Source: Rhodospirillaceae bacterium (lineage in GTDB: Bacteria; Pseudomonadota; Alphaproteobacteria; Rhodospirillales; JABHCV01). Taken from it: a stretch of 49,976 nt of DNA. The translations under genes and the position numbers were made by a program. The notes under the pieces were generated by a model, which was not told where the DNA came from, ran no database searches, and worked only from the letters and a program-made list of their open reading frames with translations. Positions 5,563 to 12,122 of the stretch are shown here, one piece after another (positions within the stretch are counted from its first letter, which is position 1; each line of letters begins with the position of its first letter). The stretch lies in the NCBI GenBank assembly GCA_018671895.1, contig JABHGV010000082.1, positions 1 through 49,976 on the forward strand. The letters are read 5' to 3'.

Positions 5563-5628
5563 AAAAAGTCGGGCAGTTTTTCCGGGTAAATGAACCACCG
5601 AAGGTGATTCATTTACCCGGAACTGCCC
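5563..5628 (-). terminator. Rho-independent-like terminator after the ClC gene
   Basis: Arms 5571-5578/5621-5628 (GGGCAGTT/AACTGCCC) and 5582-5594/5608-5620 (13 perfect pairs) form a 21-bp stem with a 3-base bulge and a 13-base loop. The stem starts at the stop codon of the minus-strand ClC gene. Read on the minus strand, it is followed after two to three bases by a six-T run (5563-5568), as expected of an intrinsic terminator. Confidence 0.7.
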
Positions 5629-7364
5629 TAGCCCCGTTCGTCACGCCGATAATCCAGCAAGGCTTTGTTATAGGCGGCCATCACCCGGCCCTCGCGAACG
5701 CAGCCAAGGAATTTCATTTCCTCGCGATCATCGACAACGGCAATGGTGTCCTCGTCACTTTCCCGCATGACCTGCAAGGCCACATCCAGATCGTCGTCTC
5801 CGGCCAGCATCGGCGGCTGGCGACGCGCCACATCACACGCCGCGACCAGATGATCCAGTTCCGGATCAAACGCGAACTCGCTCATGTCGGCCAGGGTAAT
5901 GGTGCCAAACAGGCGTCCCTCATTATCGACAACGAACAACTCACCGACTTTCGATGTTTGCAATCTGTTTCTGATTTCAGGCAAGTCGACGCCTAAGCCA
6001 ATGGTCTCGATGGCATCGGACAGAACGCTGGAAACCGAAATTTTCTTCAGCAACGCCATCTCGTAGCCATCGCGCAAGTCATGGCCCCGACGCTCAAGCT
6101 GCCAGGTAAAGAATGAGCCGCCATGGAACTGCTTGGTAATCATCGACGAAATAACGACGCAGACCATCAACGCCAGCGTCAGAGCGTAATCGCTGGTCAT
6201 CTCGAAAACAATCAGCGCCGTTGAAATCGGCGCGCCAAGAACCGCAGCGGCAACCGCCCCCATACCCAGAATGGTGTAGGCCCCGGTCCCCGTCGACATG
6301 TCTGGAAACATTTGGGTGAAAATGGTGCCATAGGCCCCGCCCAGCATCGCCCCAATCACCAGCGATGGCGAAAATACGCCGCCGCCGAAGCCAAAGCCGA
6401 TACTGATGGCGGTGGCGCAGATCTTGGCAACGAACACTGCCAATAACATTGACAGGGGAATGGCCGTCATCACTGCGGCCTCGGTAACGCCATACCCGAC
6501 ACCCAGCACCTGGGGGAACCACAGCGCCATGATGCCGACGATCAGGCCGCCGACAGCCGGACGCATCCAGCCCGGAATGGGCATCTTCTGTGCGCCGTCA
6601 TTGGCCGTCATGATCGCCTGCATGAATACCATGGCGGTCAGCCCGGCAATCACACCGAGCACAACGAAGGCCGGGAATTCCCACATGGATTCGATTATGT
6701 GTTCCGGAATCGCAAAGGCCGGATAGTCACCAAAGTAATACCGCGATATGACCGTCCCGGTGACACTGGCAATAACGATAGGGGCAAAGGCGCTCAGTGC
6801 ATAATGTCCGATCACCACTTCGCTGGCGAACAGGGCACCGGCAATCGGTGCATTGAACGATGCCGCGACTGCCGCCGCCGCGCCACACCCCAGCAGGGTT
6901 CTAGACACGCTTTGGGTAAGGTGCAGATATTTCGACATCGACGAGGCCAGGGCGGCACCAAAATGCACCGCCGGTGCTTCACGTCCAACCGAGGCACCGA
7001 AACCGATGGATGCGGCATTGATCACTGCCGCCTTAAACCCGACCCGGCCCAACATGTGTCCCCCGCGCAAGGCCGAACTTTCAATAACATCGGCCAGACC
7101 TTGCGGACGTTCGTCAGGCAACAGATATTTAATGGCAATCCCGATCAACAGTCCGCCCAGGGTTGGTGCCAGGACAACCTGCCACCAGGGAATACTTTCA
7201 ATGTGGGCGAACAGCCGTTCACTGCTGGTGCCATAGGCGACGTTCTGAATCATGGCGATGGATTCACGGAATATAATGATCGCGACCGCCGTTACCGCGC
7301 CGACGACAAACGCCAGTATCGATACAGCTATCTGACCATTCTTGGAAAAACGGGGCGGCTTCAT
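5628..7364 (-). CDS. ClC-type chloride channel/antiporter with CBS domains
   Basis: This is a multispanning ClC anion transporter of 578 residues. It has a ClC core (about 20-430) and two C-terminal CBS domains (about 445-565), which in this family sense adenine nucleotides or regulate transport. Recognisable ClC signatures are GREAP, with the gating glutamate retained, FNAPIAGALFASE, and the GGGVFSP filter segment. The first filter motif (GSGIP in E. coli ClC) is replaced by RPQGLADV, so the anion preference may differ from chloride. The gene lies 2 bases downstream of a diguanylate cyclase gene on the same strand, which implies one operon. A long terminator hairpin starts at its stop codon. 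Confidence 0.92.
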   Translation of the reverse strand: MKPPRFSKNGQIAVSILAFVVGAVTAVAIIIFRESIAMIQNVAYGTSSERLFAHIESIPWWQVVLAPTLGGLLIGIAIKYLLPDERPQGLADVIESSALRGGHMLGRVGFKAAVINAASIGFGASVGREAPAVHFGAALASSMSKYLHLTQSVSRTLLGCGAAAAVAASFNAPIAGALFASEVVIGHYALSAFAPIVIASVTGTVISRYYFGDYPAFAIPEHIIESMWEFPAFVVLGVIAGLTAMVFMQAIMTANDGAQKMPIPGWMRPAVGGLIVGIMALWFPQVLGVGYGVTEAAVMTAIPLSMLLAVFVAKICATAISIGFGFGGGVFSPSLVIGAMLGGAYGTIFTQMFPDMSTGTGAYTILGMGAVAAAVLGAPISTALIVFEMTSDYALTLALMVCVVISSMITKQFHGGSFFTWQLERRGHDLRDGYEMALLKKISVSSVLSDAIETIGLGVDLPEIRNRLQTSKVGELFVVDNEGRLFGTITLADMSEFAFDPELDHLVAACDVARRQPPMLAGDDDLDVALQVMRESDEDTIAVVDDREEMKFLGCVREGRVMAAYNKALLDYRRDERG

Positions 7365-7366
7365 TA

Positions 7367-8425
7367 TTAACTGTCAAAAGCCAATTGCGACGTCGCCACC
7401 ATTGACTCTGTCACAACACAGTTACGGCCATTGCTCTTTGCCGCATACAGCGCTTCATCGGCCCGCGAGATCAATTGCGACAGAGGTTCGCCAAACTTGA
7501 ATTCCGCCGCCCCGGTGGAAATTGTAATCTGCCCCATGGTCTCGCCTGTGGTGCGGTTCTTGATTTCTTTCTTACCGATACTGTTGCGAATAATTTCCGC
7601 GACCTTGGCCGCACCATCAAGGCTTGTCCCCGGCAATATGACGCAAAATTCCTCGCCGCCAAAACGGGCAGCCGTATCCTGACCTTTAATGCTGGAGGTC
7701 AATGTGACAGCCAACAATTTCAACACCTGATCGCCGACCTGATGACCATAGTTGTCGTTGAACTTCTTGAAGAAATCGATATCGAGGATCAACAGGCACA
7801 TGGAGGTGCCTCCTTCCATCGCTTCCATCGCTTCCCTGCGCAGTTCCGAATCAAACTGTTTACGATTGGCAATCCCGGTCAACCCGTCGGTCATCGCCTC
7901 ATGACGCATGGTCTCCAAATCTTCGCGCAGACGGTTTATTTCTTCGGAAGACGCATTGAATTTTTCTTCCAGATCTTGGTTCTGCTGCTCCATGGCCCGG
8001 GTTGCGTTCAGCGCGCTGGTCAAGGCTGACCGAAGGTGATCGGGCGTCGGGTTATCGGTAATTTCACCAGAGAACATTTCCAGTGCCTTGCCGTATTCAG
8101 CCGTTCCATCCCCCGCCAAACCAAGGTGCTCGAGAATGCGTGTCAGTTCAGCTTCCGCCCTATGCGCGGCTTCGCTGATATCGGTACTTTCCTGCTCGTA
8201 GGTAAAGAACCGGCTGTAGATTTCGTCGTTGCGTTCGGTGGTAAATTCCTGATCGTTGCCGATCAGAATGTCGATGGCCCGCTTGAGGTCTGGAATATTA
8301 TCGGAAAAATAGCTGAACCAGACCATGAAATTGGTCGGATTCGAAGGGATACCCATCTCCTTCATCTTGGCCAGCGCCGAGTTCGCATACTCGGCTGCCT
8401 GATCAACAGATTCTGTGTAGTCCAA
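7367..8425 (-). CDS. GGDEF diguanylate cyclase
   Basis: The product of 352 residues makes the second messenger c-di-GMP from two GTP. An N-terminal helical region (about 1-145), without an obvious membrane span, is followed by a short coiled coil (about 146-175) and the GGDEF domain (about 178-340). The GGEEF signature is at 256-260 and the metal-binding LDIDFFKKFND at 214-224, so activity is expected. The allosteric inhibitory site has KGQD (247-250) where RxxD is usual, so product inhibition may be weakened. It is the first gene of a two-gene operon with the ClC transporter. Its start is divergent from the glycosyltransferase operon across a 157-bp spacer. Confidence 0.93.
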   Translation of the reverse strand: MDYTESVDQAAEYANSALAKMKEMGIPSNPTNFMVWFSYFSDNIPDLKRAIDILIGNDQEFTTERNDEIYSRFFTYEQESTDISEAAHRAEAELTRILEHLGLAGDGTAEYGKALEMFSGEITDNPTPDHLRSALTSALNATRAMEQQNQDLEEKFNASSEEINRLREDLETMRHEAMTDGLTGIANRKQFDSELRREAMEAMEGGTSMCLLILDIDFFKKFNDNYGHQVGDQVLKLLAVTLTSSIKGQDTAARFGGEEFCVILPGTSLDGAAKVAEIIRNSIGKKEIKNRTTGETMGQITISTGAAEFKFGEPLSQLISRADEALYAAKSNGRNCVVTESMVATSQLAFDS

Positions 8426-8582: not shown

Positions 8583-9350
8583 ATGAACCTCCAGCAGAAC
8601 AGCCCCCCGGTACCGCGCCTTGCGGTTGTCGTTCCCGTCCACAACGAGACCGGAAACATCGCCCCGTTGATCGCCGAGATCAGGGCCGCCCTGCAGGGTA
8701 ATATCACCTTTGAAATTATCTATGTCGATGACGCCAGTACCGACGATACGCCAGACGCCCTGAACAAGGTCGCGGCAGATTGCCCGGAGTTGCGAATCCT
8801 GCGCCATCAGACCTGTTCAGGACAAAGCGCCGCCATCGCCACCGGTGTTCGCGCCGCTCGGGGTTCGGCAATCGCCACCCTTGACGGCGACGGACAAAAC
8901 GACCCGGCCGACATTCCGGCCCTGCTTGCCGCCTTCGATGGCGGCGACAATCCAGATGGCCTGCTGATTGCCGGGCTCAGGGCAAAACGCCGAGACAGCT
9001 GGGTCAAGCGCCTGTCATCCAGAATAGCCAATGGTGTTCGCGGCAGATTGCTGGGCGACGACACCACCGACACCGGATGCGGCTTGAAAGTATTCTCGCG
9101 GGATGCTTTCTTGCGTCTGCCCCATTTCAATCACATGCACCGTTTCCTGCCAGCCCTGATAATACGCGCCGGTGGCAAGGTCGTGCAGGTTCCGGTCAAT
9201 CACCGGCCACGTGAAAGTGGGGCGTCGAAATACGGCACCCTGGACCGTCTCGCCGTCGGCATTGTCGACCTGTTCGGCGTCATCTGGCTGCAACGGCGCG
9301 GGCTGAACCCCGATGCCCAGGACGTCACCCCGGACAGAGACGCTCCATGA
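8583..9350 (+). CDS. Family 2 polyprenyl-phosphate glycosyltransferase (DPM1/ArnC-like)
   Basis: A GT2 enzyme of 255 residues that should move a sugar from a nucleotide donor to a polyprenyl phosphate at the cytoplasmic face. It has the family start VVVPVHNETGNI (15-26), VDDASTDDT (48-56) and the DxD-type DGDGQNDP (101-108). A late RESGASKYG resembles the RxxGxSKY motif of dolichol-phosphate mannose synthases. It lacks clear C-terminal membrane helices, so it resembles soluble DPM1 more than ArnC. It is the first gene of an operon with a VTT-domain protein and an ArnT-like transferase. The sugar cannot be read from the sequence. Confidence 0.88.
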   Translation: MNLQQNSPPVPRLAVVVPVHNETGNIAPLIAEIRAALQGNITFEIIYVDDASTDDTPDALNKVAADCPELRILRHQTCSGQSAAIATGVRAARGSAIATLDGDGQNDPADIPALLAAFDGGDNPDGLLIAGLRAKRRDSWVKRLSSRIANGVRGRLLGDDTTDTGCGLKVFSRDAFLRLPHFNHMHRFLPALIIRAGGKVVQVPVNHRPRESGASKYGTLDRLAVGIVDLFGVIWLQRRGLNPDAQDVTPDRDAP

Positions 9351-9360
9351 GCTTGAAACC

Positions 9361-10053
9361 ATGAATCTGAAAATCCTGTTTAGGGGACTGCTGGTGATCG
9401 CCTCACTGGTCGCCCTTGGCTATGCGCTGCAAGCCAGTGGATTGGGGTCGTCCATCGACAAGACATGGATCGATTCAGACATTCGCGGCAAAGGCCTTAC
9501 CGGGGACCTGCTGTTTTTGGCCGTCGGGGCCATCGCTACGGCCATCGGTATGCCCAGACAGGTCATCGCCTTTCTCGGCGGTTATGCCTTCGGTTTTGCC
9601 GAAGGCTCGGCCCTGGCGCTGACGGCGACGGTCTTCGGTTGCATCGCGGCCTTCACCTATGCCCGGCTGTTGGGCCGTGGCTTCGTGGTTTCCCGGTTCC
9701 CGAACCGGGTGCGTAAAATCGACGACTTTCTGAAAGACAATCCGTTTTCCATGACCCTGCTGATCCGCCTGCTGCCTGCGGGCTCCAATCTGGTGACCAA
9801 TCTTGCCGCTGGTGTCTCGGGCGTTGGGGCTGTCGCCTTCGTCAGTGGTTCTGCCATCGGCTACATCCCGCAAACCGTTATCTTTGCCCTGATCGGCAGT
9901 GGCATTACCATTGATACAACACTGCGCATCGGCATCAGTGTCGTGTTGTTCGTTATTTCCGGCATCCTTGGCGTCCACCTGTATCGCAAGCACCGTCACG
10001 GCAAGAGTTTCGATGAAACCGTCGAACGGCAAATTGATGGGGCAGACGCATAA
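9361..10053 (+). CDS. TVP38/TMEM64 (VTT-domain, DedA superfamily) membrane protein
   Basis: A polytopic inner-membrane protein of 230 residues. The VTT core has GMPRQVIAFLGGYAFG at about residues 63-78, then a re-entrant-like segment with LIRLLPAGSNLVTNLAAG and GSAIGYIPQ, all typical of the TVP38 family. Members of the wider DedA superfamily are implicated in flipping undecaprenyl phosphate or other lipids. An earlier in-frame ATG (9313) would lie inside the upstream gene. ATG 9361, 10 bases after the upstream stop, is preferred. Its last base overlaps the ATG of the ArnT-like gene. Its place between a lipid-P-sugar maker and a lipid-P-sugar user suggests that it handles the lipid carrier. 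Confidence 0.88.
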   Translation: MNLKILFRGLLVIASLVALGYALQASGLGSSIDKTWIDSDIRGKGLTGDLLFLAVGAIATAIGMPRQVIAFLGGYAFGFAEGSALALTATVFGCIAAFTYARLLGRGFVVSRFPNRVRKIDDFLKDNPFSMTLLIRLLPAGSNLVTNLAAGVSGVGAVAFVSGSAIGYIPQTVIFALIGSGITIDTTLRIGISVVLFVISGILGVHLYRKHRHGKSFDETVERQIDGADA

Positions 10054-11687
10054 TGCGCGGCGGCTCACTTACCGCGAGCGCGCTATGGCTGTTGGTCATG
10101 GCGGCAGCAATCGCCACCCGCCCGTTTCTGCCCGTTGATGAAACCCGCTATCTGGCCGTCGCTTGGGAAATGTGGCATGGCGGCAACTATCTGGTGCCGC
10201 ACCTGAATGGCGAGACCTATAGCCACAAGCCGCCGCTGTTGTTCTGGCTGATCAATGCCGGATGGGCGGTATTCGGGCTCAATGACTGGTGGCCGCGATT
10301 GGTCGCGCCGCTGTTCGGACTGACCAGTTTGTGGCTGACGGCGGGACTGGCCCGCAGGTTATGGCCAGATGCCCCTGCTGCTGCCAATGCCGCCCCGTTG
10401 ATCGCCTTTGGCAGTATCTTCTGGGCGCTTTTCACGACCCTGACCATGTTCGACATGATGCTGACCTTTTGCGCGCTCGTCGGCATGCACGGCATTGTCC
10501 GCGCCCGACAGACGAACAGTCCGAACGGCTTATGGTTGCTGAGCCTCGCTATTGGCATCGGGGCATTGACCAAGGGACCGGCGATCCTGCTAACCACCCT
10601 GCCTGTTGCCTTGCTGGCCCCGTTTTGGGCACCCGTCCTCGCCGGAGACATCTGGGATCGCGGCTGGAAACGCTGGTACGCCGAGATCAGCTGGGCACTA
10701 CTGCTTGGCATCGTCATCGGCCTTATCTGGGCGATCCCGGCAGCAATCAACGGCGGTGATGACTATCGCGACGCCATCTTCTGGGGACAGTCGGCGGGCC
10801 GAATGGTCAATTCCTTCGCCCATGGCCGCCCCTGGTGGTGGTTCGCAGCCACCCTGCCGGTGCTGCTTATGCCTTGGACCATCTGGCCCGCATTGTGGCG
10901 TTCCCTTGGCGGCCTGTTTGCCAAAGCAGACGGCGGCATGCGCTTCTGTCTGGCGTGGTTGCTGCCCGCGCTGCTGGTTTTCTCAGTCATCAGCGGCAAA
11001 CAGTTTCATTATCTGTTGCCGGTTTTCCCGGCCATCGCCCTGATCATCGCACGGCTGCTGACGACGGCATCGGTATCACCCCATGCAGACGCATGGCATC
11101 GCACCGGCCTGTTACTCCCGGCACTGATGTTTTTCCTTCCCGGACTGGCGTTGTTTGGACTTGGCATCGCCGATCTTCTGGTTGACCTGCCAGCCTGGGC
11201 CGGACGGCTGAACACTCTGTGGGGGCTGGCACTGGCAATCGCCGCTGCCGGGGCCTTTCATTTTGGCCGGGGACTCGATTTACAGGCCCGACTGGTAACG
11301 CTCGCCTCCCTCGCGGCTGCGTTGGTTGTCACCATTCATCTGGCGGCCCGACCGCTGCTCAGCGAAACATTTGATCTGCAGCCGATTTCCATGAAGATCG
11401 GCGATTGGCAGCGCCAGGACATCCCGCTTGCCTTCATCGGCAAGTATCATGGCCAGTTCCAGTACCTCGGGCGACTTGAAAAGCCGATCTCCATTGTCGG
11501 ACTGCAACGTCCTGACATGCAGAACTGGATAGCCGCCCACCCGGACGGGTACGTCATCGCCGTAAGGAAACGCTGGCCAGAAGGGCTGGAACCGCTGGTG
11601 CAGGTGCCGTTCAGGGGTCGCAATATCGCTGTATTTGATATCCCTCAGGTCCTTGCCCACCCGGACTTTTTCGACATCCGCCAATAA
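10053..11687 (+). CDS. ArnT/PMT-like GT-C glycosyltransferase
   Basis: An integral membrane glycosyltransferase of 544 residues in the GT39/GT83 class, with about a dozen hydrophobic helices. The first periplasmic loop carries DETRY (29-33), the acidic catalytic motif of ArnT-type enzymes, followed by YSHKPPLLFW, also typical. Such enzymes transfer a sugar from polyprenyl phosphate-sugar to lipid A, a glycan or a protein on the periplasmic side. The start overlaps the stop of the VTT gene by one base (TAATG), showing tight coupling. No gene for aminoarabinose synthesis is in the window, so the transferred sugar is unknown. Confidence 0.88.
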   Translation: MRGGSLTASALWLLVMAAAIATRPFLPVDETRYLAVAWEMWHGGNYLVPHLNGETYSHKPPLLFWLINAGWAVFGLNDWWPRLVAPLFGLTSLWLTAGLARRLWPDAPAAANAAPLIAFGSIFWALFTTLTMFDMMLTFCALVGMHGIVRARQTNSPNGLWLLSLAIGIGALTKGPAILLTTLPVALLAPFWAPVLAGDIWDRGWKRWYAEISWALLLGIVIGLIWAIPAAINGGDDYRDAIFWGQSAGRMVNSFAHGRPWWWFAATLPVLLMPWTIWPALWRSLGGLFAKADGGMRFCLAWLLPALLVFSVISGKQFHYLLPVFPAIALIIARLLTTASVSPHADAWHRTGLLLPALMFFLPGLALFGLGIADLLVDLPAWAGRLNTLWGLALAIAAAGAFHFGRGLDLQARLVTLASLAAALVVTIHLAARPLLSETFDLQPISMKIGDWQRQDIPLAFIGKYHGQFQYLGRLEKPISIVGLQRPDMQNWIAAHPDGYVIAVRKRWPEGLEPLVQVPFRGRNIAVFDIPQVLAHPDFFDIRQ

Positions 11688-11810: not shown

Positions 11811-12122
11811 ATGAAATTCAGGCCTCTGCATGACCGCGTCGTTGTTCGACGCATTGAGCAGGATACCAAGACCGCTGGCGGCATCATTATCCCCGACACC
11901 GCCCAGGAAAAACCCAGTGAAGGTGAAGTTGTTGCCGTCGGTTCCGGCGTTCGCAACGAAGCTGGCGCACTGCAACCGCTCGACGTCAAGGCTGGCGACA
12001 GCGTGTTGTTCGGCAAGTGGTCCGGCACCGAAGTCAAGATCGACGGCGAAGACCTGTTGATCATGAAGGAAAGCGATCTTCTCGGCATCATCGAAGCGCC
12101 GAAGAAGAAGAAAAAGAAATAA
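11811..12122 (+). CDS. groES: Co-chaperonin GroES
   Basis: The 103-residue heptameric lid of the GroEL chaperonin. It begins [14 protein letters not shown], contains the mobile-loop region [20 protein letters not shown] and the central GEVVAVGSG, and ends in a run of six lysines. The lysine-rich tail extends the usual 95-97-residue form by a few residues, as in other alphaproteobacterial GroES. The ribosome binding site is ACGGAG near 11796-11801. It is the first gene after the CIRCE promoter and lies 29 bp ahead of groEL. Confidence 0.98.

Follow-up and report, generated by a model that had tools for sequence, protein, structure and literature searches.

A VTT-domain protein as candidate lipid mover in a predicted three-component glycosylation operon of a Rhodospirillaceae bacterium, and its exchange with LAB_N

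Known three-component systems and the window operon

Three-component glycosylation systems work in three steps: a sugar is attached to polyprenyl phosphate, the product is flipped across the membrane, and a GT-C glycosyltransferase transfers the sugar outside; a flippase for the donor is needed, and those known or proposed come from different families (PMC11127046). GtrA-GtrB-Gtr*, CsbB-GtcA-YfhO and ORF12/14/15 of C. youngae each combine a synthase and a GT-C with a membrane protein that takes the flippase position (PMC11127046, PMC7961091). The window considered here, the whole analysed stretch of 49,976 nucleotides from a Rhodospirillaceae bacterium (contig JABHGV010000082.1, assembly GCA_018671895.1), carries an operon likewise made of a GT2 glycosyltransferase, a membrane protein and a GT-C enzyme; it differs from those systems in its middle component, which is neither GtrA nor EmrE/ArnE-like but a VTT-domain protein, replaced in some relatives by LAB_N. 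Movers of single-sugar polyprenyl-phosphate lipids have been assigned mostly by gene context, and a search of the open-access literature, from which most subscription papers and every bioRxiv preprint were missing, found no description of a flippase position occupied by VTT or LAB_N.

The operon lies on the forward strand and opens with the GT2 gene (8583..9350; 255 amino acids (aa); PF00535, E 2.8e-25), a predicted polyprenyl-phosphate-sugar synthase of the ArnC/DPM1 type. It is followed by the gene for the VTT-domain membrane protein of the DedA superfamily (9361..10053; 230 aa; PF09335, E 2e-18), the candidate mover of the loaded carrier, and by that for an ArnT-like GT-C glycosyltransferase, a predicted periplasmic transferase (10053..11687; 544 aa; PF13231 PMT_2, E 2.1e-11). 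The VTT start is taken as the ATG at 9361, while the mechanical open reading frame (ORF) opens at 9313; the ORF coordinates bear out the arrangement first read from the letters, with a gap of 10 bp between GT2 and VTT and an overlap of 1 bp (TAATG) between VTT and GT-C. The three frames are not chance ORFs, since they are conserved across relatives at about 44-72% identity (of 40 fetched regions, VTT and GT2 are found in 40 and GT-C in 30).

GT2-VTT coupling and the exchange of VTT with LAB_N

An orthologue of the VTT protein is present in 45 of the 60 genomes of the order set (the window genome, G000, and 59 relatives), at scores above 210 bits versus below 60 bits for the next best matches. 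In the window and in each of 40 fetched regions (41 of 41 loci) VTT is immediately preceded by the GT2 gene on the same strand, and the remaining four orthologues (G023, G014, G038, G042) have GT2 in the fetched flank, giving 45 of 45; the VTT start overlaps the GT2 stop by four bases in 19/41 loci, as judged from predicted starts under a rule chosen by the authors. The GT-C gene adjoins VTT in 31 of the 41 loci; for the other ten, a strong GT-C orthologue is found elsewhere in two genomes and only weak matches (29-59 bits) in eight, and one of the ten, L053, ends about 400 bp past VTT in a genome without a strong GT-C. The sequence-only reading had proposed to look for conserved GT2-VTT-GT-C triplets by neighbourhood search: linkage of VTT to a transferase in related genomes is confirmed for GT2, while the triplet as a conserved unit is rejected, the GT-C being optional.

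The coupling extends beyond the order. Among named loci, the best 80 of 489 relatives from GTDB genomes, GT2 lies within 700 bp of VTT in 77; 43 of the 80 have a strong GT-C match downstream, and none has LAB_N nearby. Of the 77, 70 have a GT2 of the same type upstream and seven a divergent GT2 downstream (L081, L087, L088, L091, L121, L129, L137); these seven records are titled Thiobacillus, Parasulfuritortus, Gallionellaceae, Hydrogenophilus and Hydrogenophilales, and the divergent GT2 of L087 is followed by a PMT_2 gene. Because the divergent GT2 lies downstream of VTT in these loci, the GT2-VTT pair survives in a reshuffled operon. As a control, 141 PF09335 genes were collected from 36 order genomes, of which 32 are orthologues; around the other 109, the flanks of about 1.5 kb (cut by contig ends in 8/109) contain no match to the profiles of GT2 (E <= 1e-3) or GT-C, nor any to LAB_N, and GT2 was found beside all nine orthologue loci in the same control run. 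Chance adjacency of GT2 and VTT is rejected on these grounds (a smaller control gave 0/25), as is a generic link between VTT genes and GT2, since the other VTT genes of these genomes lack it; yet a divergent VTT does occur at 5 of the 85 class GT2 places described below.

VTT and LAB_N are interchangeable at one position and mutually exclusive in the genomes tested. Fifteen of the 60 order genomes have no VTT orthologue, and three of these (G028, G032, G044) have the GT2 (387-404 bits); in the other 12 no GT2 match exceeds 213 bits (search cut-off 1e-25 for 14 of the 15 and 1e-75 for G046). In all three, the gene right after GT2 encodes a small LAB_N protein (PF07578, 106.7-111.7 bits); it is followed by an ArnT-like gene in G032 and G044 and by groES and groEL, recognised by eye, in G028, and because these genes follow, LAB_N occupies the same place as VTT. 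A PF07578 genome search, which also found the LAB_N gene of L211 at 1.5e-31, shows LAB_N to be absent from the other 57 order genomes, including all 45 with VTT.

The pattern recurs in a class sample of 241 genomes from the larger group (completeness >=90%), in which GT2 is found in 83 genomes, LAB_N in 64 and the VTT orthologue in seven; LAB_N occurs together with GT2 in 58 genomes and together with the VTT orthologue in none, and G154 has a sub-threshold LAB_N match of 21 bits. Thus LAB_N shares with this VTT the position after GT2 in relatives, but is never found with it in the 60 order or the 241 class genomes. The sample has 85 GT2 places other than the window's; within 500 bp on the same strand, the gene that follows GT2 there is LAB_N at 48, the VTT orthologue at three and a divergent VTT at five. 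The five divergent VTTs follow the same GT2 in L225, L238, L239, L249 and L254; four of them cluster together in the tree, where the remaining one is a long branch at another position. They look like separate recruitments beside GT2, because they fall under three other alphaproteobacterial family codes and occur where LAB_N is absent. A GT2 tree of 127 rows, from which duplicates, L264 and the GT2 matches L216-L222 were excluded, requires at least ten switches between VTT and LAB_N, most of its forks being weak; with strongly supported branches only, one change is forced for the VTT group and five for the LAB_N group.

At about 105 aa, LAB_N is less than half as long as VTT, no sequence relation is seen between the two, and a sequence search for solved relatives of LAB_N gave none (best E 1.4). 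LAB_N is presumably linked to the PQ-loop family of MPDU1. The name LAB_N stands among the InterPro labels of PQ-loop proteins (PMC3281891).

The predicted enzymes and the subfamily of the VTT protein

The GT2 is predicted by homology to be a polyprenyl-phosphate-sugar synthase. A profile built from 28 of 41 GT2 rows matches ArnC best among solved structures (9hwj, 6.3e-38; then sll0501 and a dolichyl-phosphate-mannose (Dol-P-Man) synthase), and ArnC is also the best NCBIfam match at 100.8 bits, against an equivalog cut-off of 529. The protein carries the motifs DDxS at 49 and DGDGQ at 101; its hydrophobicity profile has a single weak stretch at 218-236, and the paired C-terminal transmembrane (TM) helices are absent. 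In appearance it is closer to a soluble synthase than to the membrane-embedded ArnC. The GT-C is predicted, again from homology, to be a transferase using a lipid-linked donor; its profile (23 of 31 GT-C rows) matches solved ArnT (5ezm/5f15) at 2.9e-26, and the ArnT model is the sole NCBIfam match, at 104.7 bits against an equivalog cut-off of 567. Residues D29, K59 and D134 are invariant in the profile and align to residues of solved ArnT that are presumed to be D55, K85 and D158. The operon thus resembles the Arn pathway (ArnC-ArnE/F-ArnT) in that ArnC and ArnT are the best NCBIfam and solved-structure matches of its two enzymes; it differs in that the scores lie far under the equivalog cut-offs and no ArnE/F stands between GT2 and GT-C. 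The labels ArnC-like and ArnT-like given from the letters therefore hold at the family level and fail at the equivalog level.

The VTT protein was compared with E. coli YqjA and YabI (COG0586), YdjX and YdjZ (COG0398) and YqaA (COG1238). In an alignment of 38 of 41 VTT rows, P65-R66-Q67 and R136, P139, G141 and N143 are invariant. Aligned with YqjA and YabI, the first re-entrant tip of the window VTT reads P-R-Q and lacks the COG0586 acid pair, and in the second tip, R136-L-L-P-A-G-S-N, only R136 is left where COG0586 has two arginines. By the published motif criterion for the COG0398 type, namely that the acids and one or both of the second-tip arginines are missing (PMC10127716), the window VTT is assigned to COG0398 from its acid-free first tip and the loss of one arginine. 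With its orthologues it forms its own clade (support 100/99); in the tree with YdjX/YdjZ, forks deeper than this clade do not resolve, with long branches meeting there. The protein therefore shares the superfamily and the PF09335 core with UptA-type DedA proteins, the COG0586 flippases of undecaprenyl phosphate (UndP), but differs in lacking the acid pair, in having one arginine fewer and in its separate clade. To the COG0398 proteins (YdjX, YdjZ; eukaryotic TMEM41B, VMP1, TMEM64) it is alike in the absent acid pair and the single second-tip arginine; it differs from them in its own clade, the invariant P-R-Q and the coupling to GT2. In two genomes of one family (L208, L209) a diverged VTT of the clade lies beside CtaA-like and GST-like genes, as judged by eye; the contig carries a GT2 match at another site.

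The AlphaFold model of the VTT protein has a mean predicted local distance difference test (pLDDT) score of 81.1; a fold search of the model against the PDB returned nothing at E <= 0.001 (best E 1.0), and a profile search for solved VTT relatives found none. COG0398 genes are reported to be essential in Caulobacter and Dinoroseobacter, and the eukaryotic relatives of the group are scramblases; Todor et al. consider COG0398 proteins unlikely to be UndP flippases and possibly phospholipid scramblases (PMC10127716).

The window genome (98.5% complete) has three VTT genes (C60, C97, C42), none of the COG0586 type by motif. Of the two outside the cassette, C97 is COG0398-like, with YdjX as its best E. 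coli match, and one is COG1238-like by motif; C97 has no GT2 nearby, unlike the cassette VTT. DUF368/PopT is found in none of 36 order genomes, the window genome included, using a model that was positive in three control genomes. GtrA (PF04138) has no match in the window genome and is present in 12 of the 36 order genomes, namely in 9 of the 32 with the VTT and 3 of the 4 lacking it, numbers that are small for a test of substitution.

The step served by VTT and LAB_N

With slightly better than even confidence, the operon is read as a three-component system of extracytoplasmic glycosylation in which VTT or LAB_N takes the flippase position. The GT2 would transfer a sugar from a nucleotide sugar to polyprenyl phosphate at the cytoplasmic leaflet; the VTT protein, most probably acting as a flippase or scramblase, would move the loaded carrier over to the periplasmic leaflet; and the ArnT-like GT-C, or another GT-C where it is missing, would pass the sugar to an envelope acceptor. 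The two enzymatic reactions are suggested by family knowledge, and transport of the loaded carrier by the position of the VTT gene and its exchange with LAB_N. The simplest role common to VTT and LAB_N is that lipid-linked sugar is made available on the far leaflet. The link of VTT follows the lipid-linked-sugar synthase and not the enzyme that would free the carrier, because the pair is kept where the GT-C is gone; a donor transporter therefore fits better than a recycler. In a wider version, considered somewhat less likely than not, the COG0398 VTT clade and at least one further GT2-linked VTT group would be scramblases of polyprenyl-phosphate monosaccharides that exchange with LAB_N, with two unrelated folds serving one step.

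Several observations weigh against the favoured reading. At 29 of the 85 class GT2 places the next gene is neither LAB_N nor VTT; these include L264, cut off by the end of its contig, L266 and L288, where LAB_N stands at a greater distance, and G112, which has two GT2s and LAB_N behind the second. Of the 83 class genomes with GT2, 19 carry no LAB_N and no VTT orthologue (5 of these 19 have a divergent VTT), and it follows from both counts that some GT2s manage without either protein. The genomes in the counts are related, so that Fisher and hypergeometric values overstate independence and serve as a guide only. Conversely, the VTT stands without an adjacent GT2 in three of the 80 named loci (L096, which lies at a contig edge, L127 and L135) and in L207, L208 and L209, the class genomes so affected being G111, G080 and G190. 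All six genomes hold a GT2 match elsewhere (207-367 bits); the matches of L096, L127 and L135 (207-214 bits) do not stand out from those of G027 and G047 (209-213 bits), which have no VTT orthologue, and only those of G111, G080 and G190 (244-367 bits) are telling. The occurrence of GtrA, itself a proposed flippase, in more than a quarter of the VTT-bearing genomes and the proposal of phospholipid scrambling for COG0398 proteins count in the same direction, and the exchange with LAB_N points to a common role without saying which.

It is rather unlikely that the VTT protein instead returns the empty carrier, moving polyprenyl phosphate back to the cytoplasmic leaflet after the GT-C has acted, as the COG0586 protein UptA does. 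UndP recycling by the DedA family is well supported (PMC12826051). Precedent for a DedA gene near lipid-linked-sugar genes is given by yngABC of B. subtilis, where the DedA gene yngC lies in one operon with a gene for GtrA (PMC7961091), and a Burkholderia DedA mutant has reduced 4-amino-4-deoxy-L-arabinose (Ara4N) on lipid A, a defect explained by carrier transport or recycling together with membrane energetics (PMC6849406). The window genome, moreover, lacks DUF368/PopT and any COG0586-type VTT, which keeps both recycling and two-way transport alive as readings. Set against this, the acid pair of COG0586 is replaced by P-R-Q and the second tip has one arginine instead of two, VTT is coupled to GT2 and stays so where the GT-C is absent, and both this VTT and PopT are missing from relatives such as G035 and G051, so that the cassette VTT is not the general recycler of the order. 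Passive two-way scrambling of polyprenyl-phosphate lipids, with the loaded carrier going out and the empty one back, is considered improbable, even though it would need only a single membrane protein for a closed cycle and suits a protein with no acid pair for proton coupling whose eukaryotic COG0398 relatives scramble lipids (PMC10127716); sequence fits one-way and two-way transport alike. The sequence-only reading, in which the VTT protein moves the carrier or the loaded carrier, is partly supported: its tie to a lipid-linked-sugar system stands and is strengthened by the LAB_N exchange, while sequence is compatible with either form of the carrier. Its supporting analogy was wrong, as the UndP-recycling argument was borrowed from COG0586 proteins, and recycling is accordingly retained as a rival and rejected as support.

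VTT and LAB_N might also transport nothing and anchor the GT2 or present its product to the GT-C, as DPM2/DPM3 or MPDU1 may do. The chances of this are small, about as low as those of two-way scrambling or slightly lower. The absence of the C-terminal TM pair from the GT2 and the link to GT2 speak for such a role, and the PQ-loop protein MPDU1 is required for all known mammalian Dol-P-monosaccharide reactions with transport unproven (PMC3281891). The seven loci with betaproteobacterial titles, however, couple VTT to a divergent GT2, and the GT2 frames of L081, L087 and L121 (330-336 aa) have room for an extra GtrB-like C-terminal part; the DedA superfamily is, besides, a lipid-transport family. 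A hydrophobic tail is seen only in L216, L217 and L219, GT2 matches of similar score from genomes without VTT linkage.

Inherited synteny provides the last alternative. Upstream of the cassette, on the reverse strand, lie a ClC (chloride-channel-like) gene and a GGDEF gene (5628-8425), a neighbourhood kept in many relatives; downstream, on the forward strand, is groES (11811..12122), a frequent neighbour that serves as a synteny marker and lies outside the system. The ClC-GGDEF-cassette-groESL surroundings are conserved in many order members, with a groES match in the fetched region, less than 5 kb from the cassette, in 27/41 loci. A VTT protein held beside groESL by descent, with an unrelated lipid-scrambling job, is nevertheless very improbable: the GT2-VTT linkage holds in the 14/41 loci where no groES was found in the fetched region (some regions are cut by contig ends) as well as in records whose titles name other proteobacterial groups, and an exchange with LAB_N at the same place would not be expected. 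As a separate observation, the window GroES ends in six lysines (APKKKKKK), and among 27 GroES sequences from the order many have a short lysine-rich extension past the usual end and some have none.

With loading by GT2, movement by VTT or LAB_N and transfer by a GT-C as the favoured sequence of steps, the VTT protein makes a good candidate for a type of lipid mover so far not known in this role. The natural exchange of VTT and LAB_N, with both found in no searched genome, makes a direct swap experiment feasible. The reading also offers a substrate for the COG0398 VTTs, whose bacterial function was left open by Todor et al. (PMC10127716). If the wider version is true, two unrelated folds would solve a step for which the responsible protein is unproven both in bacteria and in the eukaryotic Dol-P-Man and dolichyl-phosphate-glucose (Dol-P-Glc) pathway.

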